Assembly: GCA_002709505.1 (NCBI GenBank)
Contig: PARB01000057.1
Span: 1-64,000 of the forward strand
Reading direction: 5' to 3'
Source of the DNA: Paracoccaceae bacterium
Lineage (GTDB): Bacteria > Pseudomonadota > Alphaproteobacteria > Rhizobiales > Stappiaceae
Length of the DNA: 64,000 nt
The notes under the pieces were generated by a model. That model did no database searches. It was not told where the DNA came from and was given only the letters and a program-made list of their open reading frames with translations. The position numbers and the translations under genes were made by a program. The stretch's first letter is position 1. Every line of letters starts with the position of its first letter. Below are positions 20,795-38,792 of this stretch, piece after piece.

Positions 20795-22690
20795 GTGAAT
20801 GTGTTGTCGGTCGAAGGGCTGAGCGTCGATTTCGTGACCGCGGAGGGACGTTCGCGGGCAGTGAACGACGTTTCCTTTTCGGTTCCGCGCAACCGCACCG
20901 TCGCGCTGGTAGGCGAATCGGGCTCCGGCAAGACCGTGATTTCCCAGACGATCATGGGGCTTTTGCCGGAAAAGGCCCATGTCACCGGCGGGCGCGTCCT
21001 GTTCCGGGATCCGGCGACCGAGGGGGACCCGGTCGATATCGCGCAGCTCGACCGCAAGGGGCCGACCCTGCGCGCCATCCGCGGCAACCGCATCGCCATC
21101 ATCTTTCAGGAGCCGATGACCTCGCTGTCGCCCCTGCATACGATTGGCGATCAGATTGGCGAGGCAGCCCAACTTCATCGCGGCGCAGGGCCGGCGGAAG
21201 CGCGTGAACTCACCCGCGAAATGCTGAGCCTTGTCCGCTTTCCCGATCCCGTGCGCGGCCTGGATGCCTATCCTTTCGAGTTGTCGGGCGGCTTGCGCCA
21301 GCGCGCGATGATCGCCATGGCGATGATCTGCCATCCCGCGCTCCTGATTGCCGACGAACCGACAACGGCCCTGGACGTCACCATTCAGGCGGAAATCCTG
21401 AAGTTGATGAAGGACGTCCAGGAAACCCTGAAGATGTCGATGTTGCTGATCACCCATGATTTCGGCGTGGTCGCCAACATGGCCGACGAGGTCGTCGTCG
21501 TCTACCACGGGCGGGTAATGGAGCAGGGCAGCGCCGCCCAGCTGTTCGGCAATCCGCAGCATGCCTATCTCAAGGCGCTGCTCAACGCCGTGCCGCGGTT
21601 CGGGATGGAGCCGGGAGAACGGCTGGTTCCCATCCGGCCCATCGAGCCGCACGCGGAAGGGTTCCTGAAGAGCGGCCGCACCCGTGCGGCCACGCCGGGC
21701 ACGCCGCTCGTTTCGCTCTCCGGCGTGACCAAACGCTTCGTGACACGCAAGGCCGGGATGTTCGGCGGAAAATCCCACGCGCTGCTGGCGCTCGACGACA
21801 TCAACCTCACGGTCAATCGCGGCGAATGCCTCGGGCTTGTCGGCGAATCCGGATCCGGCAAGACGACGACCGCCAAGGCGATCCTGCGGGCGATCGAGAT
21901 CGACGGGGGCGAGATCCGCTACGATGCCGGCGCCGGGCCGGTTGATGTCTCCAAACTCTCCGGCGCCGATCTTCTCGATTACCGCAAGCGGGTCCAGTTG
22001 ATCTTCCAGGATCCGTTTTCCTCGCTCAACCCACGCATGACGGTCAACGACCTCTTGTCCGAGCCGCTGGTGATCCACAAGGTCGGAACACCCGAGGAGC
22101 GCGCCGAACGCGTGCGCGAATTGATGCGGCTGGTCGGTCTCGACGCCCGCTTCCTGCGTCGCTATCCGCATTCCTTCTCCGGCGGACAGCGCCAGCGCAT
22201 CGGCATCGCGCGCGCGCTTGCGCTCAATCCGGAATTCATTCTCTGCGACGAGCCGACCTCCGCGCTCGATGTGTCCGTCCAGGCGCAGATCCTCAACCTG
22301 CTGAAGGACCTGAAGCGGGAACTCGGCCTTACCTATCTGTTCGTCAGCCACAACCTGGCCGTCGTCGACTATATCGCCGACCGCATCGCCGTGATGTGCC
22401 GCGGACGGGTCGTGGAAGTCGCGCCGACCCGCGAGCTGATCGAAAATCCGCTGCATCCCTATACGCGCGCCTTGCTCGATTCGGTCCCCGAGCCGGATCT
22501 CGACGCGCCGCTCGATTTCGCCAGGCTCGACGCGGGACGCGCGTCGGAGCCCGATGCCTGGCCGCACCCCTATCGACTGACCGACGGCATGACGCCGACG
22601 CTTGTCGAAACGGAGCCGGGCCATTTTGTCTGCGCCCCCGGCCTTGCCGGCCGCGCTCCCCTTTCATCCGTCAAGGAGGCTGTATCATGA
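20795..22690 (+). CDS. Peptide-type ABC transporter, fused double ATPase (DppD-DppF-like)
   Basis: A 631-residue protein with two complete nucleotide-binding domains in tandem, the arrangement seen when DppD/OppD and DppF/OppF are fused. Each half has Walker A GESGSGKT, a Q loop ([12 protein letters not shown] and [12 protein letters not shown]), a signature ([13 protein letters not shown] and [13 protein letters not shown]), Walker B with DEPT and an H-loop His ([16 protein letters not shown]). The GTG start follows GGGAGGAGGG at about ten bases. The last four bases overlap the start of the binding-protein gene (ATGA). Confidence 0.94.
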
Positions 22691-24594: not shown

Positions 24595-24640
24595 TTGGTT
24601 TAATACGCAATATGACGATCCCCCTGCAGGAGGTCGCCTG

Positions 24641-25666
24641 ATGGCCTTCTATGTGCTGCGCCGGATCCTGACGATGATCCCGACGCTGCTGGTCATCTCG
24701 TTGCTGACCTTCATCATCATCGAGTTGCCGGCGGGGGACTATATTTCCAATCAGATCGCCGCCCTGAGGGCTGCGGGAGAAAGCGCGTCGATCGCCAAGC
24801 TGGAGTTCATGCGTAGCGAGTTTGCGCTCGACCGCCCGTTCCTTGAACGCTATCTGATCTGGATCGGGTTCTGGCCCGGACCGCACGGCTTCGACGGGCT
24901 GATCCAGGGCAACTGGGGCTGGTCCTTCGAATACGACAAGCCGGTGGCGGAGGTGGTCGGCCCGACGCTGCCGCTGACCATCGTGCTGAACACGGCGACC
25001 ATCCTTTTTGTCTATGTCGTCTCCTTCCCGATCGGCATCTACTCGGCCACAAGGCAGTATTCCTGGGGGGACTACGGCTTTACCCTGGTCGGCTATATCG
25101 GCCTTGCCACGCCGAACTTCCTGCTCGGCCTGATCCTGCTGTATTTTTCCAACCGCTGGTTCGGCCTGTCGATCGGCGGGCTGATGGATCCGCAATACAT
25201 CGGCGAGCCCTGGAGCGTTGCCAAGGCGCTGTCGATCCTGGCGCATCTGATCGTGCCGACGATCGTGATCGGGACCGCCGGCACCGCCGCGATGATCCGC
25301 CGGCTGCGGGCCAACCTGCTCGACGAACTGCACAAGCAGTATGTCACGACCGCGCGCGCCAAGGGCATGCGCGAGGCCCGGCTCTTGCTCAAGTATCCGC
25401 TGCGCATGGCGCTCAACCCCTTCATCGCCGACATCGGCAACCTGATCCCCTCGCTTGTGTCGGGGTCGGTGATCGTGTCGGTGGTGCTGAACCTGCCGAC
25501 AGTCGGGCCGGTCCTGCTCAATGCGCTGCAATCGCAGGACCAGTTCCTGTCCGGCTTCGTCCTGCTCTTCGTGGCGATCCTGACGCTGTTCGGCATGCTG
25601 GTGTCTGATCTGTTGCTCGCCGTGCTCGACCCGCGCATCCGCCTGGGCGGAAAGGCGCCGTCATGA
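24641..25666 (+). CDS. Peptide-type ABC transporter permease (DppB-like)
   Basis: A 341-residue inner-membrane permease with an N-terminal membrane helix (about 8-28), a periplasmic loop and the five-helix BPD_transp_1 core. The EAA loop reads TTARAKGMREARLLLKYPLR, which docks with the ATPase. It starts after a gap of 46 bases with a GCAGGAGG ribosome site. The final four bases overlap the second permease gene (ATGA), so the pair is translationally coupled. Confidence 0.93.
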   Translation: MAFYVLRRILTMIPTLLVISLLTFIIIELPAGDYISNQIAALRAAGESASIAKLEFMRSEFALDRPFLERYLIWIGFWPGPHGFDGLIQGNWGWSFEYDKPVAEVVGPTLPLTIVLNTATILFVYVVSFPIGIYSATRQYSWGDYGFTLVGYIGLATPNFLLGLILLYFSNRWFGLSIGGLMDPQYIGEPWSVAKALSILAHLIVPTIVIGTAGTAAMIRRLRANLLDELHKQYVTTARAKGMREARLLLKYPLRMALNPFIADIGNLIPSLVSGSVIVSVVLNLPTVGPVLLNALQSQDQFLSGFVLLFVAILTLFGMLVSDLLLAVLDPRIRLGGKAPS

Positions 25667-26835
25667 CCGTGAAGGGGGGCGATCCGCTGGATCGGGATCA
25701 CTATGTGAACCCCGAGCCGTTCAATCCGACCGCGGCCGAGACACTGTCGCCGGAACAGGAGCGCTACTACCAGGCCTCGCAGTGGAAGATCATGTGGTGG
25801 AAGTTCCGCCGCCACAAGCTGGCCGTATGGTCGGGCGCGATCCTGATCCTGTTCTATCTGGCCGTGCCCTTTGCCGAGCTGATCGCGCCCTACACGGCAA
25901 ACGAACGCTCGAACGATCACCTCTATTCGCCGCCGCAGGCCGTTCACTTCTTCCACGAAGGCCGTTTCGCCGGTCCCTTCGTCTATGGACTGGAGGCAAG
26001 CGTCGATCTGGAAACGGTGCGCTGGGTCTTCACCGAAGACCGGACCGACGTCCAGCCGATCCGGTTTTTCTGTTTCGGGTCGCAGTACAAGTTCTGGGGC
26101 CTGATCGATGGCAGTTTCCGCCTGTTCTGTCCGGCGGAAGGCGGCACGCTCTTCCTGCTCGGCACGGACAGGCTGGGCCGCGACGTGTTTTCCGGGCTGG
26201 TCTACGGCGCGCGTCTGTCGCTCACCGTCGGTCTGGTCGGCGTGACCATCTCCATCGTTCTCGGCCTGTTCTTCGGCGGGATCGCCGGGTTCTTCGGCGG
26301 CATCATCGACAGCCTGGTCCAGCGTGTGATCGAGATCCTGCGCTCGCTGCCGGAGCTTCCGCTTTGGATGGCGCTCTCCGCAGCACTTCCCGTCACCTGG
26401 TCGCCGGTGTGGATCTATCTCGGCATCACTGTGATCCTCGGGCTGCTCGACTGGCCGGGGCTTGCGCGCGCGGTGAGATCGAAGCTGCTTGCGCTTCGCG
26501 AGGAGGAATATGCCCGCGCCGCGACGCTGATGGGCGCCACCCCCTCGCGCGTGATCCGCAAGCATCTGCTGCCGGGTTTCACCAGCCACATCATCGCTTC
26601 CGCCTCGCTGTCGATCCCGGCGATGATCCTGGGCGAGACGGCGCTCTCCTACCTCAATCTCGGGCTGCGGCGCCCGGCGGTGTCCTGGGGCGTGCTGCTC
26701 AACGAGGCGCAGGATATCTCGGTCGTTGTGGTCTATCCGTGGCTGATGGCGCCGGTTGTCCCCATCATCATCGTCGTTCTTGCGTTCAATTTCCTCGGCG
26801 ACGGTTTGCGTGATGCCGCCGACCCGTATAAGTGA
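25663..26835 (+). CDS. Peptide-type ABC transporter permease (DppC-like)
   Basis: A 390-residue permease. It has a hydrophilic N-terminal extension of about 45 residues, a membrane helix (about 50-70), a long periplasmic segment (about 75-165) and the BPD_transp_1 core with EAA loop YARAATLMGATPSRVIRKH. The DppC-type motif GTDRLGRDVFSGLVYGAR is present. It is longer than DppC (about 300 residues) because of the enlarged periplasmic segment, which fits the oversized binding protein and suggests a ligand other than simple dipeptides. Confidence 0.92.
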   Translation: MTVKGGDPLDRDHYVNPEPFNPTAAETLSPEQERYYQASQWKIMWWKFRRHKLAVWSGAILILFYLAVPFAELIAPYTANERSNDHLYSPPQAVHFFHEGRFAGPFVYGLEASVDLETVRWVFTEDRTDVQPIRFFCFGSQYKFWGLIDGSFRLFCPAEGGTLFLLGTDRLGRDVFSGLVYGARLSLTVGLVGVTISIVLGLFFGGIAGFFGGIIDSLVQRVIEILRSLPELPLWMALSAALPVTWSPVWIYLGITVILGLLDWPGLARAVRSKLLALREEEYARAATLMGATPSRVIRKHLLPGFTSHIIASASLSIPAMILGETALSYLNLGLRRPAVSWGVLLNEAQDISVVVVYPWLMAPVVPIIIVVLAFNFLGDGLRDAADPYK

Positions 26836-26878: not shown

Positions 26879-27469
26879 ATGGCGAAGAACGCATCGACCG
26901 CTGACGGCTGGGACGAGGAATACCGCGCCGGGCGCTGGTCGTTCCTGCGCGATCTGCCCGAAAGCGGTCGCTATGGCATCATCGGCATGTGGCTGTCGCT
27001 GACGGAGACGCTCGACAGCGTGCTCGACATCGGCTGCGGCGAAGGGCTGCTCTACGAGCGCCTGCAGCCGATGGGCATCAAGCGTTACGTCGGCGTCGAT
27101 CTGGCGCCGGCCGCGCTCAACATTGCCAATGTCGACCCGGACCTCGCCTCGCTGCGCGCCGGCGATCTGCACACCTTCACGCCGGAGGAGGGCGAGACCT
27201 TCTCCGCGATCGTTTTCAACGAGGTGCTGCATTTCTCCGACGATCCGGCCGCAGCCGTTGCGCGCTACGTTCCGTTCCTGGCGCCGGGCGGCGTGATTGC
27301 CGTGTCGATGTATTCGCCCAAACGGCTTGAATCCGGCGCCAACCGCCTGATTTCCCGCCTGTGGGAAGCAACCGACGGTGCGGAGTGGGACGTTCTCGAC
27401 GATTACCGGCTGACCTCCGACAAGAAGAACGTCACCTGGCGGCTGCGCCTGGTCAGGCCGGCGGTCTAA
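26879..27469 (+). CDS. Class I SAM-dependent methyltransferase
   Basis: A 196-residue Rossmann-fold methyltransferase. Motif I is VLDIGCGEGLLYERL, followed by an acidic residue in VGVDLAPAAL, motif II in SAIVFNEVLHF and the post-motif LAPGGVIAVSMY. It has the short form (Methyltransf_23-like, NodS-like size) often found in polysaccharide and lipid clusters. The ATG at 26879 follows a weak GGAGACGAG site and lies 43 bases after the permease stop. Its stop overlaps the stop of the convergent deacetylase-like gene by four bases. Target unknown; the adjoining glycan genes suggest a sugar or glycolipid. Confidence 0.85.
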   Translation: MAKNASTADGWDEEYRAGRWSFLRDLPESGRYGIIGMWLSLTETLDSVLDIGCGEGLLYERLQPMGIKRYVGVDLAPAALNIANVDPDLASLRAGDLHTFTPEEGETFSAIVFNEVLHFSDDPAAAVARYVPFLAPGGVIAVSMYSPKRLESGANRLISRLWEATDGAEWDVLDDYRLTSDKKNVTWRLRLVRPAV

Positions 27470-28233
27470 CGCGCGGCCAGAAGCGCGCCGGCGCGCGGGA
27501 AGCGCGCGCCGGGATGGGCCCGCAGGATCTCGAAGGTCTTGTCCAGAAAGTCGAAACAGGCGTCGTTCTGCGCCAGATGGTGCGACAGGATGCCGAGCGG
27601 CTCGCCCGCATTGGTGCGCCGCCGCGCCAGCTGGTAGTCGAAGCGCAGCGCGGCCGAGCGCCATCCGATGAAGCGCCGGTCCTTCTTCCACTTGATCATG
27701 TCGATATGGGTCTGCAGATAGGGCAGGGCGCGCGGGTGAAACTGCGTGAAGGTGGATGAGGCCACCAGTCCGGCCTCCGGCAGGCGGCGCGCGATCTGCG
27801 GCGACAGGCGGTTCCAGGGCGGCACGAACACGGGCACGAACCGCGGGCCGAACAGGGCCGTGAGCCTTTCGCAGCCCTTTGCCAGCTGACGGATCGACTC
27901 ATCGGCATCGCGGCGCGATCCGAACTCCGCCGCCTTTTCGCCGCGCGCCTTGTCCTGATGGTTTCGGTGTTCGTACCCGTGCTGGAGCACCGCGACGAAG
28001 GGTTCGTTCGCGATTCGCTCCGCAAGCGCCTCTGTCGCCTCCTTCGGGATCACCGCAAGCGAGACCTCGATGTCATGCGTGTTGGCGATGGCGATCAGGC
28101 GGTCGAGCGCCGGTGTCGGTTCGACGGCGTCGTCGTCGCGCCACCAGACCGGCACGCTCAAGCCCCGTTCGGCGAACCAGTCGAGATGCGCCTCGAGTTG
28201 CGCCCGGAAGTCGCTGAACCCGTCATCGGTCAT
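27466..28233 (-). CDS. Polysaccharide deacetylase-like (NodB-fold) protein
   Basis: A 255-residue protein of the carbohydrate esterase 4-like fold. The early acidic motif WWRDDDAVEPT corresponds to the NodB metal/catalytic Asp motif and QHGYEHRNH to the His-X-X-X-His metal motif; VPPWNRLSP fits the RxPY/W region. There is no signal peptide, so it would act on a cytosolic or membrane-facing precursor. It forms an overlapping stretch with two glycosyltransferase genes (4-base overlap with the next one), so deacetylation of a nucleotide- or lipid-linked sugar in a glycan pathway is the likely role. Confidence 0.8.
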   Translation of the reverse strand: MTDDGFSDFRAQLEAHLDWFAERGLSVPVWWRDDDAVEPTPALDRLIAIANTHDIEVSLAVIPKEATEALAERIANEPFVAVLQHGYEHRNHQDKARGEKAAEFGSRRDADESIRQLAKGCERLTALFGPRFVPVFVPPWNRLSPQIARRLPEAGLVASSTFTQFHPRALPYLQTHIDMIKWKKDRRFIGWRSAALRFDYQLARRRTNAGEPLGILSHHLAQNDACFDFLDKTFEILRAHPGARFPRAGALLAAR

Positions 28234-29387
28234 CGGCTCCGCTGCTCCAGGTCGTCCATCAGGATCTCGGCGCTGCGCTCTGCCCCGCCCGTTTGAACGG
28301 TAAACCGGCGTTTCGGCAGCGCAAGCGCGTCGTCGATGGCGCCGGCCAGGGCTTCCGGCGTCAAGGACGCTTCCGGGGTGACGACCGCCCGCCCATGGCG
28401 CTGCAGCGCTTCGGCGCGTTGCTGCTGTTCGGTTTCCTTGATCTGGGCGAAGGGCACAAAGACTGCCGGAACGCCTGCCCGCAGGACATCAAGCACCGTG
28501 TTGTAGCCGGCCTGACTGACGGAAAGCCGTGCGCGGGCCAGAAGCGAGGGAAAGTCCCGCCGTGCGCGCTCCAGGACAATGCCGGTTGAGGCCTTGTTCG
28601 AAAGTGCATCGAAGGTGGCGGCGTCGATGTCATGGCCGGCAAGCAGCCGCCATGTGCAATCGCCGGCGCGCCTGGAGAGCGGGCGGGCGTCGATGGCCGC
28701 TGCCAGAAGGTCGGCGCCGACGGCCCCGCCGCCGCAGGAGACGACCACCTCGTCCTCGCCGTCTCCCTCCTGCGCGTCAGGGCGACCGGTCGACGTGTCG
28801 ACAAAGCCGGTGTAGCGCAGGAGCGGCGCGATACGATCGGTGAAGGGGAAACTGTCCTCAAGCCGGATGAACTCCGGATCGGAATGCACCAGCACGCGGT
28901 CGCAGAAGGCCTCGGCAAGCTCGGCCATCTGCTCTTCTTTCCAGAGCTGCTGCTTGCGCACCAGGATGTCGCGGATCGAGGCGGCGACAAGCGGCGGGCG
29001 ATCCAACGCCCGGGCGGTCGCGGTCAGAGCCTCCATCTCGAAGGCGAAGGGACGGCGGCCGAAGGGCCAGGTCTCGGTCAGAAGCAGGTCATAGGGCCGG
29101 GCGGTGAAGGCGCCAAGCGTCGCCTGCCGGCGGGCCGTCTTCCAGCCGTCGTCGATCTCCCGTCCCTCGGGCGTCAGGAACGTCTTGAACCGCGCGTCGG
29201 CGGCGCGCACTGGCGGCAGTTCGACGATCTCCAGTCCACCGACATCGGCATGCGGCGGCAGCGTGTTGCCGGTGGCGAGTGTTACCGCCACGCCCCGCTC
29301 GGCGAGCGCGCGCCCGATCGCGGCGGCCCGCAGCACATGGCCGGTCCCCAGCAGGTGCTGGACGTGGATGAAGGCGGAGAGGGTCAT
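28230..29387 (-). CDS. MurG/GT28-like glycosyltransferase
   Basis: A 385-residue GT-B protein. The N-terminal LLGTGHVLRAAAIGRALAERG resembles the glycine-rich start of MurG and of UDP-sugar transferases. The C-terminal half has LSVSQAGYNTVLDVLRAGVPAVFVPF, the donor-binding region of GT28 C-terminal domains. Acceptor and donor are unknown. Four-base overlaps on both sides place it inside a single transcript with the deacetylase-like gene and the next glycosyltransferase. Confidence 0.82.
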   Translation of the reverse strand: MTLSAFIHVQHLLGTGHVLRAAAIGRALAERGVAVTLATGNTLPPHADVGGLEIVELPPVRAADARFKTFLTPEGREIDDGWKTARRQATLGAFTARPYDLLLTETWPFGRRPFAFEMEALTATARALDRPPLVAASIRDILVRKQQLWKEEQMAELAEAFCDRVLVHSDPEFIRLEDSFPFTDRIAPLLRYTGFVDTSTGRPDAQEGDGEDEVVVSCGGGAVGADLLAAAIDARPLSRRAGDCTWRLLAGHDIDAATFDALSNKASTGIVLERARRDFPSLLARARLSVSQAGYNTVLDVLRAGVPAVFVPFAQIKETEQQQRAEALQRHGRAVVTPEASLTPEALAGAIDDALALPKRRFTVQTGGAERSAEILMDDLEQRSR

Positions 29388-30508
29388 GACGGCAAGGTCC
29401 CGCTTCGGGCGGCATGGGTGGCGCCGGCCGCTTGCATCAAGGCATCAAGCCGCTGCGCCCCGCTGGCGAGGCTGTGACGTTGGGCGATGTTTGCCCTCGC
29501 GCCGCTGGCGAGACGCGCCACAAGGCCGGGATCGTCGATCAGACGGCGGATGTTGGCGGCGAATGCGGTCGTGTCGCCCTCCGGTGACAAAAGCCCGCTT
29601 TTGCCGTCGGCCACCACCTCCGGTACGCCGAAGGTGTCGCCGCCGACAACAGCAAGCCCGCTCGCCTGCGCTTCCAGAAAGACGAAGCCGAAGGCCTCGC
29701 GGATCGCCGGCCAGACGAGGACGTCATGACGGGCGTAGAGCGCGGGCATGTCATCCTCCGCAAGGGCTCCGGTGAAGGTGACGCGCGCGGGATCGAACCA
29801 CCCTGCGATTTCCGTCCGGCAAGGCCCGTCGCCGGCTATGGTCAGCTGCCAGGGTCGCCCCGCCAGCAGGGCAAGCGCGTCCGCGAGCAGTCTGTAGGAG
29901 GCGTGCTTGTCTCCGGGCCGCATCATCCCGACCGCCAGCAGCCGCAAGGGCGAGGTCGCCGCACTGCGGGACGACGCCGCATCGCGAAACGGTGCCTCGT
30001 CCAGGAACGGCGGGCACACCTCCAGCCGGTCGGCCGGCACGACCTCCTTGAGGCAGCCCAGGTCGGCGCTGTGCAGGGCAGCAACCCGGTCGGCGCGGGC
30101 GAGGGCCGCATCGGCTGCGGCGAACCCGTGCGACCAGGGGCCGGTGCGACGCTTGGGCGCCCGGCTTGCCTCGATCACGACGTAGGGAAGGTCGAAGGCG
30201 TCGGCAAGCGCGGGGCCAATCCAGTCCGGCGCCTTGTGGTAGAGGTGGTAGGTCAGGAACGCGTCGGGCCGGGTGCCGTCAGATCGCCATTCGCGCGCGA
30301 TCCGCGCCGCCTCGCGCCTGGCCTCGGCCTCCAGCGCAAGCTGCATGTCGATGCCGCCGTCCTTGCGCCAGGCGCGAAACCGCGAGGTGACCGAGACTTC
30401 GTGCCCGGCCGTTTCCAGCGCGCGCAGAATCAGCCGGCCCATGGTGCGATCGCCGGACGGCACGGGATCGTCCAGCGGTTTCATCGGAGCGGTGAAGGCG
30501 ATGCGCAT
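29384..30508 (-). CDS. GT4-family glycosyltransferase
   Basis: A 374-residue GT-B transferase with the C-terminal Glycos_transf_1 domain. The acidic donor motif is EAFGFVFLEAQASGLAVVGGDTFGVPE, an EX7E motif of family GT4 (about residues 267-293). The N-terminal half (KPLDDPVPSGDRTMGRLI) is the acceptor domain. No signal peptide. Overlaps the GT28-like gene by four bases and lies nine bases from the upstream GT4 gene, so all are one operon. Confidence 0.87.
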   Translation of the reverse strand: MRIAFTAPMKPLDDPVPSGDRTMGRLILRALETAGHEVSVTSRFRAWRKDGGIDMQLALEAEARREAARIAREWRSDGTRPDAFLTYHLYHKAPDWIGPALADAFDLPYVVIEASRAPKRRTGPWSHGFAAADAALARADRVAALHSADLGCLKEVVPADRLEVCPPFLDEAPFRDAASSRSAATSPLRLLAVGMMRPGDKHASYRLLADALALLAGRPWQLTIAGDGPCRTEIAGWFDPARVTFTGALAEDDMPALYARHDVLVWPAIREAFGFVFLEAQASGLAVVGGDTFGVPEVVADGKSGLLSPEGDTTAFAANIRRLIDDPGLVARLASGARANIAQRHSLASGAQRLDALMQAAGATHAARSGTLPS

Positions 30509-30517
30509 CGCTGTGCC

Positions 30518-31741
30518 TTACAGGATCTTGCGAAACCGGTCTGCCAGAAAATCGAGCCCAGGGTCGGCGGAAAACCGGGCGCGGACGTCCTGTGCCGCCG
30601 CCTGGCCGAGCCGGTGGCGGGTGTCGGGCGAGCGGATCAGCGTTTCCATGGCGGCAGCAATCGCCGAGCGATCCGCCGGCGGAACCAGAACGCCGGTCTC
30701 GCCATCGCGGATCAGTTCGGGAATCGCGGAGACCCTGGTGGCGAGGCAGCACAGGCCCATTGCCTGCGCTTCCATCAGCACGTTCGGCAGTCCGTCGCGG
30801 TCGCCGGACTTGGCGACCTTAGAAGTCAGGACGAAGAGGTCCGCGCGGCTCGCCGCGGCAATTACGTCCTCGCGCGGACGCGCGCCCTGCCAGGAGATGC
30901 GGTCGGTCAGGCCAAGGCGCTCGGCGAGCGCCTTCAGGTCATCGGCCTTTTCCCCGCCGCCGATATGGTCGAAGTGCCAGTTGAGCGAGGCGGGCAGGGC
31001 AGCCAGCGCATGCAGCAGGTCGTCGTAGCCCTTCTTTTCCACCGCGCGCCCGACGGAGAGCAGGCGCACGGGCGCGCCCGTCGCGCCGTTTGCCGTGCCG
31101 GGTGGCCCGTCCGGTTGCGGAAAGGGCGAGAAATCCAGCCCGTGGTAGACGAGATCCACCTTGTCCGGCGTGTCGGCGAGCGCGTTCAGGTGATCGACGT
31201 TGATCTTCGTGCAGGTGACGCCCCAGGCGGCATCGGCGAGTTTGACCTTCAGGTCCCACTCCGCACTCGTCCAGATGTCCTTGGCGTGAGCGGAAAACGA
31301 CCAGCGCCGGCCCGACAGATGCGCGGCATAACGGGCAACCGTGCAGGGCGTATGCAGATAATGGGTGTGGATCCAGGAGACGTCGTCGGGAAGCTCGTGG
31401 GCAAGCACGCAGGCCTGGCCCCAGCGCCGCTGCCGCCCGGCATTGGACTCGCGCGCGAAGTCCGCCTCGAAAAGCGCGCGCGCTTCCGCATAGGTCGGCT
31501 GCGCCTGCGCCCAGCGGCGCGCGCGGGCAACGCGGGCCGGGTCATCCTTCAGATACTCGGGAAGATAGAGAACATCGGCGGTGATCTTGCGATGCACTTC
31601 GTGGATGAAGGGATCGTAGGGCTTGCGCAAGGCCACGATGAGCTGGTCGATCCCGCGTGTCTGAAGCCCGTGGATCTCCTGGGCGATGAAGGTTTCCGAC
31701 AGGCGTGGATAGCCTTTTACGACGACGGCGAGGCGCGACAT
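30518..31741 (-). CDS. GT4-family glycosyltransferase
   Basis: A 407-residue GT-B enzyme beginning MSRLAVVVKGYPRLSETFI, a start common to exopolysaccharide transferases. The C-terminal domain has LLSVGRAVEKKGYDDLLHAL and the EX7E-type region GLPNVLMEAQAMGLCCLAT. The ATG at 31741 follows AGGA with five-base spacing; a TTG at 31768 would add nine residues. It is one of four transferases in this cluster, so it probably adds one residue of a repeating unit or glycolipid head. Confidence 0.87.
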   Translation of the reverse strand: MSRLAVVVKGYPRLSETFIAQEIHGLQTRGIDQLIVALRKPYDPFIHEVHRKITADVLYLPEYLKDDPARVARARRWAQAQPTYAEARALFEADFARESNAGRQRRWGQACVLAHELPDDVSWIHTHYLHTPCTVARYAAHLSGRRWSFSAHAKDIWTSAEWDLKVKLADAAWGVTCTKINVDHLNALADTPDKVDLVYHGLDFSPFPQPDGPPGTANGATGAPVRLLSVGRAVEKKGYDDLLHALAALPASLNWHFDHIGGGEKADDLKALAERLGLTDRISWQGARPREDVIAAASRADLFVLTSKVAKSGDRDGLPNVLMEAQAMGLCCLATRVSAIPELIRDGETGVLVPPADRSAIAAAMETLIRSPDTRHRLGQAAAQDVRARFSADPGLDFLADRFRKIL

Positions 31742-31786
31742 GTGATCCTGATGTTCAACAGGGTTCAAAGGGCAGGCGAGAAGCGG

Positions 31787-33013
31787 TCAGTCACCGCCGC
31801 GCGCTGTGATGCGCAGCGCATCCGGGCGCGGCTTGTCCGCCAGGATGGTTTCGACGCGGTCGCCGATCACGTCCAGCCCGCCAAGCAGATTATCGATTCC
31901 GGCCGCGGACGGCGGATTTGAGTTCGGCAGGGCAACCAGCGCCGCGATCATCTTGTCGACATCGGGGTAGTCCTCGATCGGTAGCACCTTGAGCAGGCCG
32001 ATGGCCTGGGCCCGTGTCGCGCGAATGGACTGTTCCCGCCGCGGGACGACGCGCGGCACCATCAGCGTCGGCTTGTCGAACGACAGGATCTCGCAAAACG
32101 TGTTGTAGCCGCCCATCCCGACGATCGCCTTTGCGCCGGCCATATAGGGCTCGATGGTCGGCAGGAAGCGCAGGATATGGACATCGCGCAGGTGTTCCGC
32201 CCGTGCCAGGAATTCGGTCGCCGATGAGGCCGGCATGAAGGGGCCGAGAACGATCAGGGCGGGAAACAGCGGCTGGGAGCGGGCCTCATAGGCGCGCATC
32301 ACCCAGTCGACCAGCTCGACGCCGTCGCCGCCGCCGCCGGGCGTGACGAGAATATAGGGTTCGTCGTCGAAGGGCAGCGGTTCGGTGATCTTGGCGTCGG
32401 CGGGAATGTCGCGGCGCAGGTATCCGGTGTTCGTCGCCTTGGCATGAACGGCGGGCGTCAGGTCCATGCCAGCCAACGGGTCGTGCAGGTCGGGCGGTCC
32501 GTAGATCCAGATCTCGTCGTAGAGCCGCTCAAGCGCCGGGTCGACATTCTTGCGGGTCCATTCCTCGCGCAGATGCGCCGGATCGTCCATCACGTCGCGC
32601 AGGCCGAGAACGAGCCGTGTGGTCCCGCGCGCCTTGAGCATCTCCAGCGTGCTGAGGATCTCGCCGCGCAATCCGAGCGGTTCCTTGTCGACGATCAGGA
32701 TGTCGGGATCGAACACCTGTGCCGTGTGTTCGATGATCGACGAGCGAATCGCCAGGATGTGCTCGATGTTGAGCGACAGCGACAGCGGCGTGTATTCGCC
32801 ATTCCTGAGCTTGATGACGCCGGGAATGCGAACGAAGTCGACGCGCGTGCGGAATTCGAAGCTGCCGATGATCGGGGATCCGGACAGGATCAGGACCGAG
32901 AGGTCGCCAAACCGCTCGGTGAGCGCATGCGCAATTGTCCGGCAGCGCCGAAGATGGCCCAGACCAAAGGAATCATGGCTGTAAATCAGCACTTTCGGGG
33001 AAGTGTTCGTCAT
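31787..33013 (-). CDS. GT28-like glycosyltransferase
   Basis: A 408-residue protein with a GT-B layout. The start IYSHDSFGLGHLRRCRTIAHAL is a glycine-rich nucleotide-sugar transferase N-terminus. The C-terminal half has ILVTPGGGGDG, FLPTIEPYMAGAKAIVGMGGYNTFCEIL and a late RREQSIRATRA, as in the C-terminal domain of MurG-type enzymes. It is the promoter-proximal gene of the minus-strand glycan operon and stands back to back, across 272 bases, with the aberrant ABC transporter gene. Confidence 0.83.
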   Translation of the reverse strand: MTNTSPKVLIYSHDSFGLGHLRRCRTIAHALTERFGDLSVLILSGSPIIGSFEFRTRVDFVRIPGVIKLRNGEYTPLSLSLNIEHILAIRSSIIEHTAQVFDPDILIVDKEPLGLRGEILSTLEMLKARGTTRLVLGLRDVMDDPAHLREEWTRKNVDPALERLYDEIWIYGPPDLHDPLAGMDLTPAVHAKATNTGYLRRDIPADAKITEPLPFDDEPYILVTPGGGGDGVELVDWVMRAYEARSQPLFPALIVLGPFMPASSATEFLARAEHLRDVHILRFLPTIEPYMAGAKAIVGMGGYNTFCEILSFDKPTLMVPRVVPRREQSIRATRAQAIGLLKVLPIEDYPDVDKMIAALVALPNSNPPSAAGIDNLLGGLDVIGDRVETILADKPRPDALRITARGGD

Positions 33014-33285
33014 TCGGCCCCATTCGGTCAGCGCAACCGGTGTCCGGCACGACCACGCATTCCCTCATATCCTTCTGCTCTAGCCCCGGCGCCAACGCGA
33101 TGCAAGACCGGAACGCTCCGGTTGTCCCGCGCAAGGCTGAAGCCCCGTTGCATACTCAGCCGCTCGCACGACCTGGACCGCAACGGTTGCCAAATGCATC
33201 CTGCGCTAACTGGCGCTTTGAAAACACCGCGTTATGATGCGAGAAGATCGAGAGCGACCAACGCCAGCCAGGCACACAACCCCCT

Positions 33286-35889
33286 ATGGAAAAAAGCCTC
33301 TTCCGCTTCATCTGGCAGTATAGCGCAAGGCAGCAGATGGTGATCCTGCTGATCACCGTGCTGTCGTATCCGGTGAGCTATATCCTGCTGGAGCTGCCGA
33401 AGCTGATCGTGAACGACGCGATCCAGGGAGAATTGTTTCCCCGCGAGGTCCTGGGCTTCGAGTTCGACCAGATCTCTTATCTGGTGCTCTTGTGTTTCGC
33501 CTTCCTCGGCCTGGTGATCCTGTCGAACGGGATCAAGCTCGTTCTCAATGTCTACAAGGGGCGTCTTGGCGAGCGCATGCTCCGCCGGCTGCGCTTCGAG
33601 CTGTTTCAGCGGGTGCTGCGCTTCCGTCTTCCGCATTTCAAGAAGGTGAGTTCGGGCGAGATCATTCCGATGATCACCTCCGAGGTCGAGGATGTCGGCG
33701 GCTTCATCGGCGAGGCGGTGGCCTTGCCGGCCTATCAGGGCGGCATGCTGGCCGTCCAGATCGGCTTCATCTTCATGCAGGACCCGCTTCTGGGGCTGGC
33801 GGCAATCTCGTCCTACCCGATGCAGGCCTACATCATTCCCAAGCTGCAGAAGAAGGTCGTGCTGCTGTCCCGGCAAAGGGTGCGCAACGTGCGCGTCATC
33901 GCCGACAAGATCGGCGAAAGCATCACCGGGGTGTCGGAGATCCACGCCAACGATGCGTCGGCCTGGCATTCGGCCGACCTTTCCGATCGCCTCTATACCA
34001 ACTACAAGATCCGCTTCAAGATCTTCAATTGGAAGTATTTCATAAAGTTTCTCAATAACTTCATGAATCAGCTGACGCCGTTCCTGTTCTATCTGATCGG
34101 CGGCTGGCTGGTGATTGAGGGCAACCTGTCCATTGGTGCGCTGCTTGCCGTGATTGCCGCCTACAAGGACCTTGCCGGTCCCTGGAAGGAACTGCTCGCC
34201 TACTATCAGATGGTTGCCGATGTCGACGTGAAGTACCAGACGGTCGTGGAAAACTTCGATCCGCCGGACATCTACCCCGTCGCGCGCCTGGTCACCGACG
34301 AGCCCGAGCCGCTCTCCGGCGCGCTGGCTCTGAAGAATGTCAGCGTCTCGGGCGGCGCGGCCGGTCAGGAGGCCTTCGACGTGACGGTGACGGTGGAGCC
34401 GGACCAACATCTGGCGGTCATCGGCCCGGACGGATCGGGCCGCTCGGAGGTGCTGCAACTGGCCGCCGGCCTGCTCGGCCCGACAAGCGGGCGGGTCGAG
34501 ATCGGCGGGCGAAACCTGGAGACCTTGAGCGAATCCGTGCTCGGCCGCCAGATCGCCTATGTCGGGCCGTCCGTGCATGTCTGGACCGGGACGGTGCGCG
34601 ACAACATCTTCTACGGTCTGCGGCACCGGCCCCTGCGCCCGCCCGAGCGGACCGGCGAGCGCAAGGCGGATTACGCCCGACGGCTTTCCGAGGCCCAGCT
34701 GACCAGCAACCCGCAATATGACATCGAGGCGGAATGGGAGGATCTGGACGCGCTGGCCTGTGCGGATGTCGACGACCTTGTCGAGCACGCGCTCGCCCTG
34801 ATCGAGCTCACCGGCCTGGCGGCGGATGTGTTCCGCATGGGATTGCAGGCAACCATCGATCCGGAGTCGCAGCCGGAGTTCGCGGAGGCGATCCTGGCCG
34901 CGCGTCGGGCGCTTGCCGACCGGGTCGCGCATGACGACCGCTTTTCCGCGATGATCGAGCTTTGGCAGATCGACCGTTTCAACAACAGCGCCAGCATCGC
35001 CGAGAACCTCCTGTTCGCGGCGCCCGCGGATAGCTCCATCGGGATCGACACCCTGGCGTCGGATCCCGACATCGAAGCGGCCTTGAAGGAGTCCGGGCTC
35101 TATACGCGCCTGCTGGAGATCGGCCAGAAGATCGCCGAGACGATGGTCGAGCTCTTCGCCAACATCAGCGACGATTCCGGCCTGCTCGGCGATTATTCGT
35201 TCATCACCCAGGACGAGTTGCCCGAGTTCGAGCGGATCCTGAGGGCTGCGAAGATCGGGTCCGGCAAGGGCGGGCTGACCCCGACCGACGAGCAGCGCCT
35301 CATCGGCCTTGCCTTCAAGCTGATTCCCGCCCGGCACCGCCTGGGCGTGCTCGACGACGACATGCGGGGCGAGATCGTCGCGGCCCGCGCGACCTTCCAC
35401 AAGCGTATGGACGAAGCGGAGCGCCGCTTCGTCGTGTTCGACCGCGACCGCTTCGTCGCGCCGATGACCATCGAGGACAATCTCCTCTTCGGCCGGCCCC
35501 GCGTCGACCGGCGGGATGCGCGCGAGAAGATCGACAAGGTGATCCGGGCACTCGTCGAGGAGATGGAGTTGCGCCGTCCGATCATCCGTGCGGGACTGGG
35601 CTTCCATGTCGGGGTGGCCGGGTCGCGGCTTTCGGCCGGCCAGCGTCGGCGGGTCGCGCTGGTGCGCGCGCTGATGAAGAATGCGCCGGTGACGATCCTC
35701 GACGAGACGGCAACCGGAAACAGCGACGACGACAAGGCGCTGCGCAAGGTGATCCGGGAGCAACTCGACGGGCGCATGCTGCTGTTCGGGGCGTCGAATT
35801 TGATCGTCGCGGAGGAATTCGACCATAGTATCGTGATGAACCAGGGACGGATGACGGAGAGCGCGTCGGGGGATGACAATGCGGATTGA
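33286..35889 (+). CDS. Aberrant ABC transporter: membrane domain plus greatly expanded, degenerate nucleotide-binding domain
   Basis: An 867-residue half-transporter, against about 580-620 for usual MsbA-type exporters. Residues 1-310 form an ABC-exporter membrane domain with about six helices. The ATPase domain starts near 345. Walker A is GPDGSGRS (380-387) with Arg386 where Lys is normal. The Q-loop region YVGPSVHVWTGTVRDN (425-440) lacks the Gln. An insertion of about 325 residues (450-775) precedes the signature RLSAGQRRRVAL (781-792). Walker B is TILDET (803-808), and the H-loop His is replaced (GASNLI, 835-840). Within the insertion, RFNNSASIAENLLFA (564-578) and RFVAPMTIEDNLLFG (722-736) echo the host motif at 432-444. 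Export of the product of the neighbouring glycan cluster is plausible but unproven. Confidence 0.85.
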   Translation: MEKSLFRFIWQYSARQQMVILLITVLSYPVSYILLELPKLIVNDAIQGELFPREVLGFEFDQISYLVLLCFAFLGLVILSNGIKLVLNVYKGRLGERMLRRLRFELFQRVLRFRLPHFKKVSSGEIIPMITSEVEDVGGFIGEAVALPAYQGGMLAVQIGFIFMQDPLLGLAAISSYPMQAYIIPKLQKKVVLLSRQRVRNVRVIADKIGESITGVSEIHANDASAWHSADLSDRLYTNYKIRFKIFNWKYFIKFLNNFMNQLTPFLFYLIGGWLVIEGNLSIGALLAVIAAYKDLAGPWKELLAYYQMVADVDVKYQTVVENFDPPDIYPVARLVTDEPEPLSGALALKNVSVSGGAAGQEAFDVTVTVEPDQHLAVIGPDGSGRSEVLQLAAGLLGPTSGRVEIGGRNLETLSESVLGRQIAYVGPSVHVWTGTVRDNIFYGLRHRPLRPPERTGERKADYARRLSEAQLTSNPQYDIEAEWEDLDALACADVDDLVEHALALIELTGLAADVFRMGLQATIDPESQPEFAEAILAARRALADRVAHDDRFSAMIELWQIDRFNNSASIAENLLFAAPADSSIGIDTLASDPDIEAALKESGLYTRLLEIGQKIAETMVELFANISDDSGLLGDYSFITQDELPEFERILRAAKIGSGKGGLTPTDEQRLIGLAFKLIPARHRLGVLDDDMRGEIVAARATFHKRMDEAERRFVVFDRDRFVAPMTIEDNLLFGRPRVDRRDAREKIDKVIRALVEEMELRRPIIRAGLGFHVGVAGSRLSAGQRRRVALVRALMKNAPVTILDETATGNSDDDKALRKVIREQLDGRMLLFGASNLIVAEEFDHSIVMNQGRMTESASGDDNAD

Positions 35890-35981
35890 TCCGGATTTCG
35901 CTCTCCTGTCCCGATCATATCGAGTGGCCCGAGTGCCGGCATGCGCGGCGTGTTGCGTGCCGCCGGGCCGAAGGAGGATCT

Positions 35982-36440
35982 GTGACCCTAGACTCTGAAG
36001 TTGACGCCCTGCGTCGTGTGCCTTTGTTCCGGGGCATCGATGCCACAAAACTGAGGCTGCTGGCTTTCATTTCCGACCGGACGCATTTCGCGCCCGGAGA
36101 GGAGTTGTGCCGTCAGGGAGAGGAGGGCGATTCCGCCTTCATCATTCTGGAGGGCGAGGCGGACATTCGCGTTTCCACGCCGGATGGCGAAAGGACTGTC
36201 GCCCGGCTCGGGCAGCATTCCATTGTTGGCGAAATCGCGATCCTGTGCGACGTTCCGCGCACCGCCACGGTGGCGGCGGCGACGGAAATGGACGTCCTCA
36301 CCGTATCGAAGGATGATTTTCTCCGGTTGCTCAAGGAATTTCCGGACATGTCGCTCGAGGTCATGCGCACGCTTGCGCAACGTCTGGAGCGCACGACACA
36401 AGACCTCGCGGCGCAAAAGGCGTCCGGCGCGGCAGCTTGA
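35982..36440 (+). CDS. Stand-alone cyclic-nucleotide-binding domain protein
   Basis: A 152-residue protein consisting of one cNMP-binding beta-roll with flanking helices and no DNA-binding or enzymatic domain. The phosphate-binding cassette GEIAILCDVPRTATV contains the conserved Glu85, Arg93 and Thr94. The GTG start at 35982 follows AAGGAGG at ideal spacing; frames further upstream are not conserved. It sits 92 bases after the ABC gene, and its stop region overlaps or abuts the next gene. As in CRP-type regulatory subunits, it should bind cAMP or cGMP and pass the signal to a partner, perhaps the ABC protein or the hydrolase. Confidence 0.88.
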   Translation: MTLDSEVDALRRVPLFRGIDATKLRLLAFISDRTHFAPGEELCRQGEEGDSAFIILEGEADIRVSTPDGERTVARLGQHSIVGEIAILCDVPRTATVAAATEMDVLTVSKDDFLRLLKEFPDMSLEVMRTLAQRLERTTQDLAAQKASGAAA

Positions 36441-36454
36441 GGCGAGGAAACGGA

Positions 36455-37279
36455 GTGTCGCAGTCGTTGTCGCTGAAATTGTGGGGTGTGCGCGGGTCGA
36501 CGCCCACGCCGGGGGCCGGCACGCTTCGCTATGGCGGGGAAACCACCTGTTTCGAAATCCGCGCGGGAGAAGATTCCATCCTGATCGATTGCGGGTCGGG
36601 CGCGCGCAATCTCGGTGTGGAGCTGCACGCCGCGCCGCCGCGCGCCTTCGACCTGTTCTTCACCCACACCCATCTCGACCACATCTGCGGACTGCCGTTC
36701 TTCACGCCCGCCTATGACGACCGCTTTTCCATCACGGCCTGGGCGGGGCATTTCGCCGACCGCTCCGGGCTGATGGACATCATCTGCCGGATCATGTCGC
36801 CGCCGATCTTTCCCGTCGCCGCCAACAAGCTGCGGGCGGTGTCCTTCCGCAATTTCCGGTCCGGCGAAACCGTTGAGCGCGGCGACGGCATCGCCCTGCG
36901 CACCGTCGGGCTCAACCACCCGGGCGGGGCCACCGGATACCGGCTGGACCATGCCGGCAAGTCCATTTGCATCATCACCGACCACGAGCATGGCAATGCC
37001 GAGATCGATCAGGCCGTCCGGCGGTTTGTCGAAGGCGCCGACGTGATGATTTATGACGCCATGTACACGGATGACGAATACGACCGCTTCGTCGGCTGGG
37101 GGCATTCGACCTGGCAAAAGGGCATTGAACTGGCGCTGGACGCCGGCGTCGCCTGTCCGGTTCTGTTCCATCACGACCCGCGCCGCACCGACGACCAGCT
37201 GGACGCGATCGGCGAAGCGGCGGCGAAACGCCATCCCGGGGCGCTTGTCGGGCGCGAGGGCATGGTGCTGACCCCGTAA
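36455..37279 (+). CDS. Metallo-beta-lactamase-fold hydrolase, phosphodiesterase-like
   Basis: A 274-residue MBL-fold protein opening with the strand LKLWGVRGSTPTPG and the loop LRYGGETTCFEI of the PhnP/RNase Z-like branch. The dinuclear metal motif is THTHLDH (70-76); further ligands are in GLNHPGG, ITDHEH and FHHDP. This branch includes phosphodiesterases acting on cyclic nucleotides or cyclic phosphates. The GTG at 36455 follows AGGA; a TTG at 36437 overlapping the upstream stop is an alternative. Lying between a cyclic-nucleotide-binding gene and a cyclase gene, it may hydrolyse a cyclic nucleotide, but this is inferred from context. Confidence 0.85.
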   Translation: MSQSLSLKLWGVRGSTPTPGAGTLRYGGETTCFEIRAGEDSILIDCGSGARNLGVELHAAPPRAFDLFFTHTHLDHICGLPFFTPAYDDRFSITAWAGHFADRSGLMDIICRIMSPPIFPVAANKLRAVSFRNFRSGETVERGDGIALRTVGLNHPGGATGYRLDHAGKSICIITDHEHGNAEIDQAVRRFVEGADVMIYDAMYTDDEYDRFVGWGHSTWQKGIELALDAGVACPVLFHHDPRRTDDQLDAIGEAAAKRHPGALVGREGMVLTP

Positions 37280-37412
37280 CGCGCGATCACGTCGCGGTGA
37301 CGCCGCCGGCGGTGAGTTGCCGCTGAGCGGGTTTGCGGTCTTTATGGCCGGAGGCGGGGCGCTCGCAAGTGCTCGAAGCGGCCCGTACACCCGAAGCCGG
37401 CGGAGATGCGAC

Positions 37413-38792
37413 GTGGACAATGGCAAGGCGGTTGCGCCCCCCCGGCGTCGGGACGGCTGGGTCGGCTACATTCTTCGCGGCGGTCCCCGGCAGGACGGAA
37501 TCCCCGAACGGGTGCGGGCCGAGATCCGCATGCGCGAAAACAGCGCCGAACGCCTGATCGGCTGGGTCCAGCTCGCCATGGTGGTTTTCTTCGCCGGGCT
37601 CTATTCGCTTGCGCCGCGGGCTGAGGGCGCGGACGGGTTCAATTTCGTGCCGCTGGCGCTTGCCGCCTATTTCCTCTTCACGGTCCTGCGCGTCGGCCTG
37701 TCCTACCGCTTCGTACTGCCGGCGTGGTACCTGGTGGTCTCGATTGTTGTCGACGTGGCGCTCCTGTGCGCCCTGATCTTCTCCTTTCACATCCAGTACG
37801 GTCAGCATCCGACGTTTTATCTCAAGGCACCGACCTTGATGTATCTCTTCATCTTCATCTCATTGAGGGCCCTGCGGTTCGATCCGCGGTTTGTCCTGAT
37901 CACCGGTCTGGTGGGCGTTGCCGGTTGGCTTGCGCTGGTCGGCTATGCGGTGCTCTCGGACATGGGAGACATGCGCATCACCCGCAATTACGTCGAGTAT
38001 CTCACCTCCAACGCGATCTTGATCGGGGCGGAACTCGACAAGACGATCATCATCCTGGGCGTCACCCTGTTTCTGTCGGTGGCCCTGTACCGGGGGCGGC
38101 AGGTTCTGTTCGATGCGGTGCGCGATCACGCGGCCGCGGAAGATCTCAAGCGCTTTTTCGCGCCAGAGGTGGCTCACACGATCACGGATTCCGATGTGGC
38201 GCTGACCGCGGGGCGCGGAGAGATCCGCAAGGCCGCGGTTATGTTCATCGATATTCGCGGTTTCACACGCACGGCCGCTGGGCTGCCGCCGGCGACGGTG
38301 ATGCAGGTGCTCGCCTGCTATCAGGAGGAGATGCTGGCTCTGATCTCCGCGCACGGCGGGCGGGTCGACAAGTTCCTGGGCGACGGCATTCTGGCAACCT
38401 TCGGTGCGGTGGAGCCGAGCGAAACCGCCGCCGCCGATGCCGTGCGGGCAGCCTGCGGGCTGCCCGCGGCCGTCGAGCGGCTGGTGCCCCGCGCATTGGC
38501 CTGTGGATGGCCCGAGCCCCTGCGTGCCGGCGGAGCGGTGACCTACGGGGCCGTGACGGTCGGCGTGGTCGGGGCCGCGAACCGCCTGGAATTCACGGTC
38601 ATCGGCAATACGGTGAACCGGGCGGCGAAGCTCGAAGACGCCAACAAGGCGCAGGCGACACGGGTGCTGACGGACCTGGAGACCTTCGAGGCGGCAAGGG
38701 CGCAAGGGTACCGCGAGGCGCCGCTCGACCTGCGCCCGGCCCGGGAGGTCGCCGGCATCGCGCAACCGGTGGACCTGGTGGTGCTGGCTTGA
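37413..38792 (+). CDS. Polytopic membrane adenylate/guanylate cyclase
   Basis: A 459-residue class III cyclase with about five or six membrane helices (about residues 50-240) and a cytosolic catalytic domain (about 270-450). Metal sites are MFIDIRGFT and VDKFLGDGILATFG; the Lys in VDKF favours ATP. The transition-state region reads FTVIGNTVNRAAKLE. Unlike the cyclase at 18.7 kb it has no periplasmic sensor, so it may sense the membrane or a partner. The GTG at 37413 after GGCGGAGA is preferred over a start at 37317. It is the last gene of the ABC/cNMP-binding/MBL set and is followed at once by a terminator. Confidence 0.9.
   Translation: MDNGKAVAPPRRRDGWVGYILRGGPRQDGIPERVRAEIRMRENSAERLIGWVQLAMVVFFAGLYSLAPRAEGADGFNFVPLALAAYFLFTVLRVGLSYRFVLPAWYLVVSIVVDVALLCALIFSFHIQYGQHPTFYLKAPTLMYLFIFISLRALRFDPRFVLITGLVGVAGWLALVGYAVLSDMGDMRITRNYVEYLTSNAILIGAELDKTIIILGVTLFLSVALYRGRQVLFDAVRDHAAAEDLKRFFAPEVAHTITDSDVALTAGRGEIRKAAVMFIDIRGFTRTAAGLPPATVMQVLACYQEEMLALISAHGGRVDKFLGDGILATFGAVEPSETAAADAVRAACGLPAAVERLVPRALACGWPEPLRAGGAVTYGAVTVGVVGAANRLEFTVIGNTVNRAAKLEDANKAQATRVLTDLETFEAARAQGYREAPLDLRPAREVAGIAQPVDLVVLA

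Follow-up and report, generated by a model that had tools for sequence, protein, structure and literature searches.

The 64,000-nucleotide stretch of DNA analyzed here (positions 1 to 64,000 of contig PARB01000057.1 in assembly GCA_002709505.1, deposited as Paracoccaceae bacterium and placed in the Stappiaceae by GTDB; hereafter the window) contains a gene for an ATP-binding cassette (ABC) half-transporter, in which the nucleotide-binding domain (NBD) is expanded and several catalytic residues are replaced. Comparison with its relatives indicates that the protein belongs to an alphaproteobacterial family derived from ABC exporters, in which the start of the helical subdomain of the NBD occurs three times, the residues for ATP hydrolysis have decayed repeatedly, and a cyclic-nucleotide-binding (CNB) domain is kept as the product of the next gene or as a fusion. 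With a probability of about one half, we regard these proteins as catalytically weakened ABC exporters that are gated by a cyclic nucleotide and serve a surface-glycan pathway.

A nucleotide-binding domain with a triplicated module

Two Pfam domains were recognized in the protein, ABC_membrane at residues 61-290 (63 bits, cut-off 28) and ABC_tran (76.6 bits, cut-off 25), both above the curated cut-off and the latter split into two stretches. The best NCBIfam match is TIGR02203 (MsbA) with an E value of 1e-48 and 166.2 bits, which is below the curated cut-off of 602. An original prediction, made from the window sequence alone, had placed about 325 extra residues (450-775) in front of the signature LSAGQ. 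The insertion is indeed present, since Asn440 and Leu782 are 342 residues apart in the window protein, a distance that amounts to only 41-49 residues in the five ordinary exporters compared from this genome; its size, however, had been overestimated. Only 50 residues separate Asn732 from Leu782, and residues 713-775 form the usual connection to the signature, which leaves a net excess of about 290-300 residues (approximately 446-712).

It had also been proposed that two stretches of the insertion (564-578 and 722-736) resemble residues 432-444 of the host domain, as if a piece of the domain had been repeated, and this likeness proved to extend further than stated. Three units, U1, U2 and U3, share a strand, the motif x-x-x-A-[ST]-x-x-[ED]-N-[LI]-x-F-G, which is looser in U1, and a subsequent 'GL' helix. 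Profile comparison with hhalign gave a score of 81.7 for U2 with U3 (62 columns, probability 99%), 44.5 for U1 with U2 and 37.6 for U1 with U3. In the controls, 16 other windows of the family did not exceed 17.6, and four pairings whose columns were each shuffled 40 times did not exceed 18.5. When the units were aligned to ordinary ABC exporters of the same genome, U1 scored 58.3, U3 35.0 and U2 25.6. Moreover, a profile of the insertion found a second match over the U3 region directly after the first in 11 of the 31 matching genomes of a phylum sample and in 17 of the 97 matching genomes of an order sample, as counted by eye. Hence, judged from these profiles, the protein has three copies of the start of the NBD helical subdomain, which comprises the Q-loop strand, the Asn-helix and the 'GL' helix, and duplication of the NBD's own module gave rise to at least part of the insertion.

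The triplication is claimed for the first half of the helical subdomain only. The helices preceding U2 and U3 match each other with a score of 49.1. Their descent from the signature helix was considered and found unsupported, because scores of 8.5-11.3 against the canonical signature tail or its counterpart are at background level (background values reached 17.1, apart from one of 47.5 whose window overlapped the tested segment). That R540, R701 and R794 are placed equivalently is no more than suggestive.

The remainder of the insertion, including W484, D486 and the TM.ELF and HRLG stretches, is conserved in the family and has no known relatives in Pfam, NCBIfam or PDB sequences. The profile search that the original prediction had recommended returned no recognizable foreign domain and instead the NBD's own module. 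Residues 451-775 alone gave no match in Pfam (E up to 0.1) or NCBIfam (E up to 0.01), residues 451-727 none among PDB sequences (E up to 10), residues 451-720 none in PHROGs, and a model of the insertion alone (predicted local distance difference test, pLDDT, 61.6) no Foldseek match under an E value of 0.001; the presence of a foreign domain was therefore rejected. This insertion-only model is too weak for any claim on its fold. The top three rows of its VIA-align comparison are ABC proteins with Z scores of 4.0-4.8 (CFTR NBD1 496-564, AtAtm3 561-635 and MsbA NBD 425-498), with potassium channels and others just below. Judged from residue numbers, the three rows lie between Q-loop and Walker B, which is consistent with the duplication and no more.

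A structure prediction of the whole protein had likewise been suggested and succeeded in part. The AlphaFold2 model, built from a 22-sequence alignment, reached a pLDDT of 64.4, with a poorly modeled transmembrane part, NBD blocks of about 50-90 and a mostly helical insertion. The NBD of this model aligned with the ComA NBD (3vx4_A) in VIA-align with a Z score of 20.8 and a root-mean-square deviation of 2.8 Å over 222 of 239 residues; thus, the predicted core fold closes around the insertion.

Distribution and selection

Twenty-one named assemblies, from Stappia, Roseibium, Pannonibacter and Hongsoonwoonella, encode full-length collinear homologues that are 65-99% identical to the window protein, and plasmid-borne homologues of about 35-36% identity occur in Sinorhizobium, Ensifer and Azospirillum. 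Searched with the insertion alone (residues 451-720), 131 of 385 sampled alphaproteobacterial genomes gave a match, in most cases a single one, and the insertion profile matched 97 of 297 genomes of the order and 31 of 398 genomes of the phylum sample, all 31 being Alphaproteobacteria. Relative to three close relatives, the ratio of nonsynonymous to synonymous substitution rates (dN/dS) ranged from 0 to 0.113 over the transmembrane domain, both NBD parts and the insertion. The insertion showed the highest or near-highest values of these four parts and the transmembrane domain, which is strongly conserved in the family, was among the lowest (0 to 0.038). Purifying selection in every part together with the collinear homologues argues that neither an assembly or sequencing artefact, which the original prediction had named as a possible refutation, nor a pseudogene is present in the window. 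Its suggestion of a new subfamily is well supported by the spread of the insertion across Alphaproteobacteria and by the family-wide loss of catalytic residues described below.

The ABC gene is broken in the relatives G022 and G027, and in G018, G023, G032 and G036 a stop lies within the matched range. In Sinorhizobium meliloti 1021 the pSymB homologue (L134, 832000-852000) is split by a frame difference, and the same homologue forms one open frame of about 903 amino acids in S. meliloti B399 and ml46. Annotated records of family members name the product merely ABC transporter protein, and no paper on the family was found in the open-licence PubMed Central (PMC) literature, which is no proof of absence.

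Repeated decay of the catalytic residues

For motif scoring, 129 sequences were reduced to 77 representatives (pairwise under 60% identity), from an alignment without the partial sequence L078 and the broken sequences L101 and L102. Seven features were scored: K386, S/T387, Q428, the signature glycine G785, the Walker B aspartate D806, the catalytic glutamate E807 and H837. In the window protein, sequence and alignment confirm the predicted exchange of Lys for Arg in the Walker A motif (GPDGSGRS, 380-387), the missing Q-loop Gln (Pro at the canonical position 428) and the replaced H-loop His (Ser at position 837). The signature LSAGQ and the Walker B motif VTILDE, of which the latter had not been mentioned in the prediction, are intact.

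None of the 77 representatives possesses the full set; five features are present in one (L060), four in four, among them the window protein, and none at all in 24. The Walker A Lys is found in 18 and the Walker B Asp in 22 representatives, with Asn taking the place of the latter in 43, and both the Walker side and the signature side of the ATP site decay across the representatives. R540, N574, R701, N732 and G736 are invariant in all 77, R794 occurs in 75 and W484 in 73. On a FastTree phylogeny of the transmembrane part, read regardless of branch support, parsimony requires at least 11 changes for K386 and at least 15 for E807, with the alignment of the catalytic positions being less certain in the most distant members L103-L109.

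The original prediction had asked whether the Arg, the lost His and the insertion are conserved, and regarded homologues with the insertion but normal Walker A and H-loop as speaking against it. All 22 sequences of the near clade have Arg386, which is present in 32 of the 77 representatives. L060 carries the insertion although its Walker A (Lys/Thr), its Walker B and its H-loop His are normal. Since this homologue also lacks the Q-loop Gln and has the signature LSGAQ, it represents the opposing case only in part, but it indicates that the insertion can occur independently of the Arg and the lost His. The complete sequence set of a competent ABC ATPase is thus found neither in the window protein nor in any of the 77 representatives, and the family-wide residue loss is in line with hydrolysis that is weak or absent.

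A conserved cyclic-nucleotide-binding partner

A CNB domain is the same-strand neighbor or a C-terminal fusion of the ABC protein at 64 of 65 loci with the ABC gene. The 64 comprise 60 adjacent cases detected by BLAST, L090 with a gap of 136 bases, and L089, L106 and L107, which gave no BLAST match and carry a fused CNB domain according to Pfam; no CNB domain was found at the locus of L103. The 65 loci include the broken L101 and L102 and both L091 and L127, which probably represent the same genome. All six fused tails tested match PF00027, fusion is suggested by length in 16 of the 77 representatives, and parsimony needs three changes to explain it. The phosphate-binding cassette, a motif that marks cyclic-nucleotide binding, is canonical at 55 of the 65 loci, either as GEIAILCDVPRTAT or as a close variant.

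In the window, the ABC and CNB genes are followed by genes for a metallo-beta-lactamase (MBL)-fold hydrolase and a class III cyclase. The same order is found at L100, and a cyclase gene lies directly upstream of the fused ABC-CNB form at L112 and L127. The MBL-fold protein could act as the off-switch of the operon for cyclic AMP (cAMP). Elsewhere in the window (18744-20630, plus strand) lies the gene for another class III cyclase, which matches dCache and HAMP weakly.

The original prediction had proposed either a slow, regulated ABC protein or a new subfamily in which the insertion supplies a control domain. The subfamily and the weak or absent hydrolysis agree with our data, but the insertion as a control domain is unsupported, because it holds the NBD's own helical start and no foreign domain was detected in it. 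The sequence comparisons make the CNB protein, be it the product of the next gene or a fusion, a likelier control element than the insertion, although the latter could still contribute to control.

Linkage to a glycosyltransferase operon

The ABC gene is divergent from an operon for four glycosyltransferases, GTa to GTd, whose conserved end encodes a protein with a weak DUF2334 match, which we take to be polysaccharide-deacetylase-like. Each of the 21 near loci has all four beside the ABC gene, and 31 of the 44 other loci have one or more. Over the 385 genomes, the ABC family (E up to 0.001) and GTa (E up to 1e-40) occur together in 124, the ABC family alone in 7, GTa alone in 3 and neither in 251 (Fisher p 6.6e-88, a value that ignores phylogeny). 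GTa also co-occurs where no glycosyltransferase is adjacent, namely in G082, on different contigs, and in G214 and G439; in G402 and G228 GTa alone is located elsewhere. In the relative G027 (L102) the ABC gene lies in several pieces, GTa and the cyclase are broken, CNB and MBL matches remain, and GTb to GTd were not found in the examined stretch, hence transporter and glycosyltransferases have apparently decayed jointly. Taken together, co-occurrence, adjacency and joint breakage suggest that the ABC protein most likely serves a glycan pathway.

The coordinates of the features are given in Table 1. Two further observations concern this part of the window. A 938-codon antisense open reading frame (ORF; 33232-36048, minus strand) spans the whole ABC gene and is probably a by-product of the high G+C content. 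An oligopeptide-type ABC importer with a double ATPase, a solute-binding protein of family 5 and two permeases is encoded at 20795-26835 (plus strand). In S. meliloti, Ensifer and Azospirillum, the two permeases also neighbor these glycosyltransferases.

Table 1. Coordinates, strand and basis of assignment of the features in the window.
Feature	Position	Strand	Basis
Weak DUF2334 match below cut-off; conserved end of glycosyltransferase operon	27466..28233	-	library match, locus comparison
Glycosyltransferase GTd (MurG-like)	28230..29387	-	Pfam, NCBIfam
Glycosyltransferase GTc (GT4)	29384..30508	-	Pfam
Glycosyltransferase GTb (GT4, EpsE-like)	30518..31768	-	Pfam, NCBIfam
Glycosyltransferase GTa (GT28-C-like), divergent from ABC gene	31787..33013	-	Pfam; co-occurrence
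ABC-exporter-like half-transporter with expanded, degenerate NBD, 867 amino acids	33286..35889	+	ORF list, Pfam
Transmembrane domain, residues 1-335 (ABC_membrane)	33286..34290	+	Pfam; domain end by eye
Walker A-like GPDGSGRS, residues 380-387, Lys to Arg	34423..34446	+	sequence, alignment
Repeat unit U1, residues 417-522, canonical Q-loop copy, Gln lost	34534..34851	+	hhalign
Extra segment compared to ordinary ABC exporters, residues ~446-712	34621..35421	+	family and exporter comparison; ends by eye
Repeat unit U2, residues 552-620, inserted copy, ...RFNNSASIAENLLFA...	34939..35145	+	hhalign
Repeat unit U3, residues 710-776, copy leading into signature motif	35413..35613	+	hhalign
ABC signature LSAGQ, residues 782-786	35629..35643	+	sequence, alignment
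Walker B VTILDE, residues 802-807	35689..35706	+	sequence, alignment
H-loop position 837, Ser in place of His	35794..35796	+	alignment
CNB protein; ORF overlaps ABC stop codon, start is mechanical ORF start	35886..36440	+	PF00027, E 8.4e-23
Phosphate-binding cassette GEIAILCDVPRTAT of CNB protein	36228..36269	+	locus comparison
MBL-fold hydrolase; weakly like RNase Z and cyclic-nucleotide phosphodiesterase family	36437..37279	+	Pfam; NF041851 E 3e-9, far below cut-off
Class III adenylate/guanylate cyclase	37317..38792	+	PF00211, E 1.9e-11

Comparison with other ABC proteins

The order of ABC_membrane and ABC_tran, the best NCBIfam match and the NBD core fold in the model resemble MsbA and other type IV (ABCB-like) half-transporters; in contrast to these, the window protein has about 290 extra residues, the tripled helical-subdomain start, degenerate catalytic residues and 166 instead of 602 bits. 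SMC, Rad50 and UvrA also carry modules inserted between Q-loop and signature, which are coiled coils or domains binding zinc or partners, whereas in the window protein a copy of the domain's own helical piece forms part of the insert. Some catalytic residues are also lost in the heterodimers TM287/288, TmrAB, CydDC and TAP and in CFTR, in which regulation goes beyond ATP. Across the present family, however, the decay extends to the Lys of Walker A and to either half of the site, a CNB protein takes the place of an R domain, and no partner was identified at the loci.

A report on HetC (PMC10986499) describes an ABC exporter with a C39 peptidase and an N-terminal CNB domain, which is required in vivo and binds guanosine tetraphosphate (ppGpp), and with an essential catalytic residue of the ATPase. 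The association of an ABC exporter with a CNB domain, here in or beside the gene, is common to both; unlike HetC as described there, the window protein has degenerate catalytic residues, its CNB domain is supplied by the next gene or, in fused members of the family, follows the ABC part, and no C39 peptidase domain was found in it, with Pfam giving ABC_membrane and ABC_tran only.

An association of an ABC exporter with glycosyltransferases is also known from S. meliloti MsbA2 (SMb21191), which in PMC12239276 and PMC3687685 is tied to upstream glycosyltransferases and an unknown polysaccharide. An identity of the window family with MsbA2 was rejected, because the ChvI-bound fragment of the MsbA2 operon given there lies at 938 kb of pSymB and the S. 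meliloti homologue of the window protein at 841.7-844.4 kb. SMb20813 is called the msbA homologue in PMC10945364, but no result of the present analysis ties it to the homologue at 841.7-844.4 kb.

Possible function and alternatives

In the mechanism that we consider best supported, the family consists of half-transporters with a rebuilt NBD, probably forming homodimers, in which the hydrolysis residues decayed repeatedly and the repeated modules and the transmembrane domain stayed constrained. The dedicated partner would be the CNB protein, fused in several lineages, which would bind a cyclic nucleotide, probably cAMP. Ligand binding to this subunit might be relayed to the enlarged helical face of the NBD dimer, beside the coupling helices, and thereby gate the transmembrane part, with ATP being bound structurally or hydrolyzed slowly. 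The divergent glycosyltransferase operon would provide a lipid-linked glycan, whose export or flipping would thus be switched by the cyclic nucleotide.

Several observations weigh against such a mechanism. The window protein keeps four of the seven catalytic features (Ser387, the signature Gly, the Walker B Asp and the catalytic Glu), which makes slow hydrolysis possible, and L060 keeps five (K, T, D, E and H). The cassette is not canonical at 10 of the 65 loci (the fused L089 and L104-L109, L111, L130, and L103 without CNB domain), and, as HetC binds ppGpp, the CNB fold can accommodate ligands other than cAMP, which may also apply to the window protein. A cyclase match is present in the stretch at 25 of the 65 loci only (17 of 21 near loci and 8 of 44 others), and because cyclases are common in these bacteria (0-36 per genome in 40 genomes), their adjacency is supporting, not decisive. 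Glycosyltransferases are not adjacent at 13 of the 44 non-near loci, of which at least L098 is a short contig, the co-occurrence and locus counts are uncorrected for phylogeny, and the full-length model is weak, above all in its transmembrane part.

The residues retained in the window protein (Ser387, LSAGQ, Asp806, Glu807) and in L060, the strong purifying selection on the transmembrane and NBD parts and the intact NBD fold in the model would also be expected of an ATP-driven exporter with unconventional or slow catalysis, in which the Arg Walker A holds ATP, Glu and signature hydrolyze it, and the CNB protein only tunes the rate. This is possible but rather unlikely, because the absence of all seven residues in 24 of 77 representatives and the change of the Walker B Asp to Asn in 43 make ordinary hydrolysis improbable as the conserved function of the whole family. 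A more far-reaching form of cyclic-nucleotide gating would be a bacterial, CFTR-like conversion of an exporter into a cyclic-nucleotide-gated flippase or channel, whose gating is free of ATP hydrolysis, whose extra copies of the helical-subdomain start receive the CNB subunit, and which releases a widespread alphaproteobacterial surface glycan; we regard it as a speculative idea that is unlikely to hold.

Catalytic decay alongside a conserved CNB cassette, and the co-occurrence with GTa even where it is unlinked, might also point to a protein that no longer transports, i.e., a membrane scaffold or sensor that reads the cyclic nucleotide and controls assembly or activity of the glycosyltransferases, with the ABC fold as a remnant. 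The strong conservation of the transmembrane domain (dN/dS 0 to 0.038) fits transport better and makes this role doubtful.

Known heterodimeric exporters such as TM287/288 and TmrAB pair a degenerate with a normal NBD, and entries of both appear among the structural matches of the window NBD model, hence the window protein might be the degenerate subunit of a heterodimer with a canonical half-transporter encoded elsewhere in the genome. Another ABC NBD, mostly untyped, occurs in the stretch at 14 of the 65 loci, and the one at L104 is of exporter type by Pfam. However, no other ABC NBD match (E up to 1e-10) was found in the stretch at 51 loci, and the Walker side and the signature side both decay, so that a heterodimer appears improbable. 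The partner count was made by BLAST on the locus stretches only, and the transmembrane part of distant exporters is not recognized in this way. As to individual loci, L104 (G214) has an ABC exporter half-transporter and a HlyD-type protein directly upstream of the fused ABC-CNB gene, and L130 has a further untyped ABC NBD match at 10633-11244, about 1.5 kb past the ABC-CNB pair.

Finally, an anti-phage signaling unit like Pycsar, which combines a cyclase with a CNB effector bearing a TIR or transmembrane killer domain, is very improbable. In its favor are matches, at the domain level only, to the PADLOC profiles of the Pycsar cyclase and of CNB effectors. Against it, no cyclase match is present in the stretch at 40 of 65 loci, and the family shows mostly one match per genome, a conserved neighborhood and a distribution that tracks the glycosyltransferase.

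Implications

About a third of the sampled Alphaproteobacteria carry this ABC family, to which the annotated records consulted give a generic name. If its members are gated by a cyclic nucleotide and not driven by ATP turnover, they would add another, independent instance in which an ABC exporter has lost its engine, this time in organisms accessible to bacterial genetics. The finding would also point to a surface-glycan pathway of which no description was found in the open-licence PMC literature, and the numerous class III cyclases found in these bacteria would gain a concrete output other than transcription. The interest of this widespread ABC family lies in the fact that the loss of its ATP engine alongside a retained cyclic-nucleotide partner is testable in laboratory strains.

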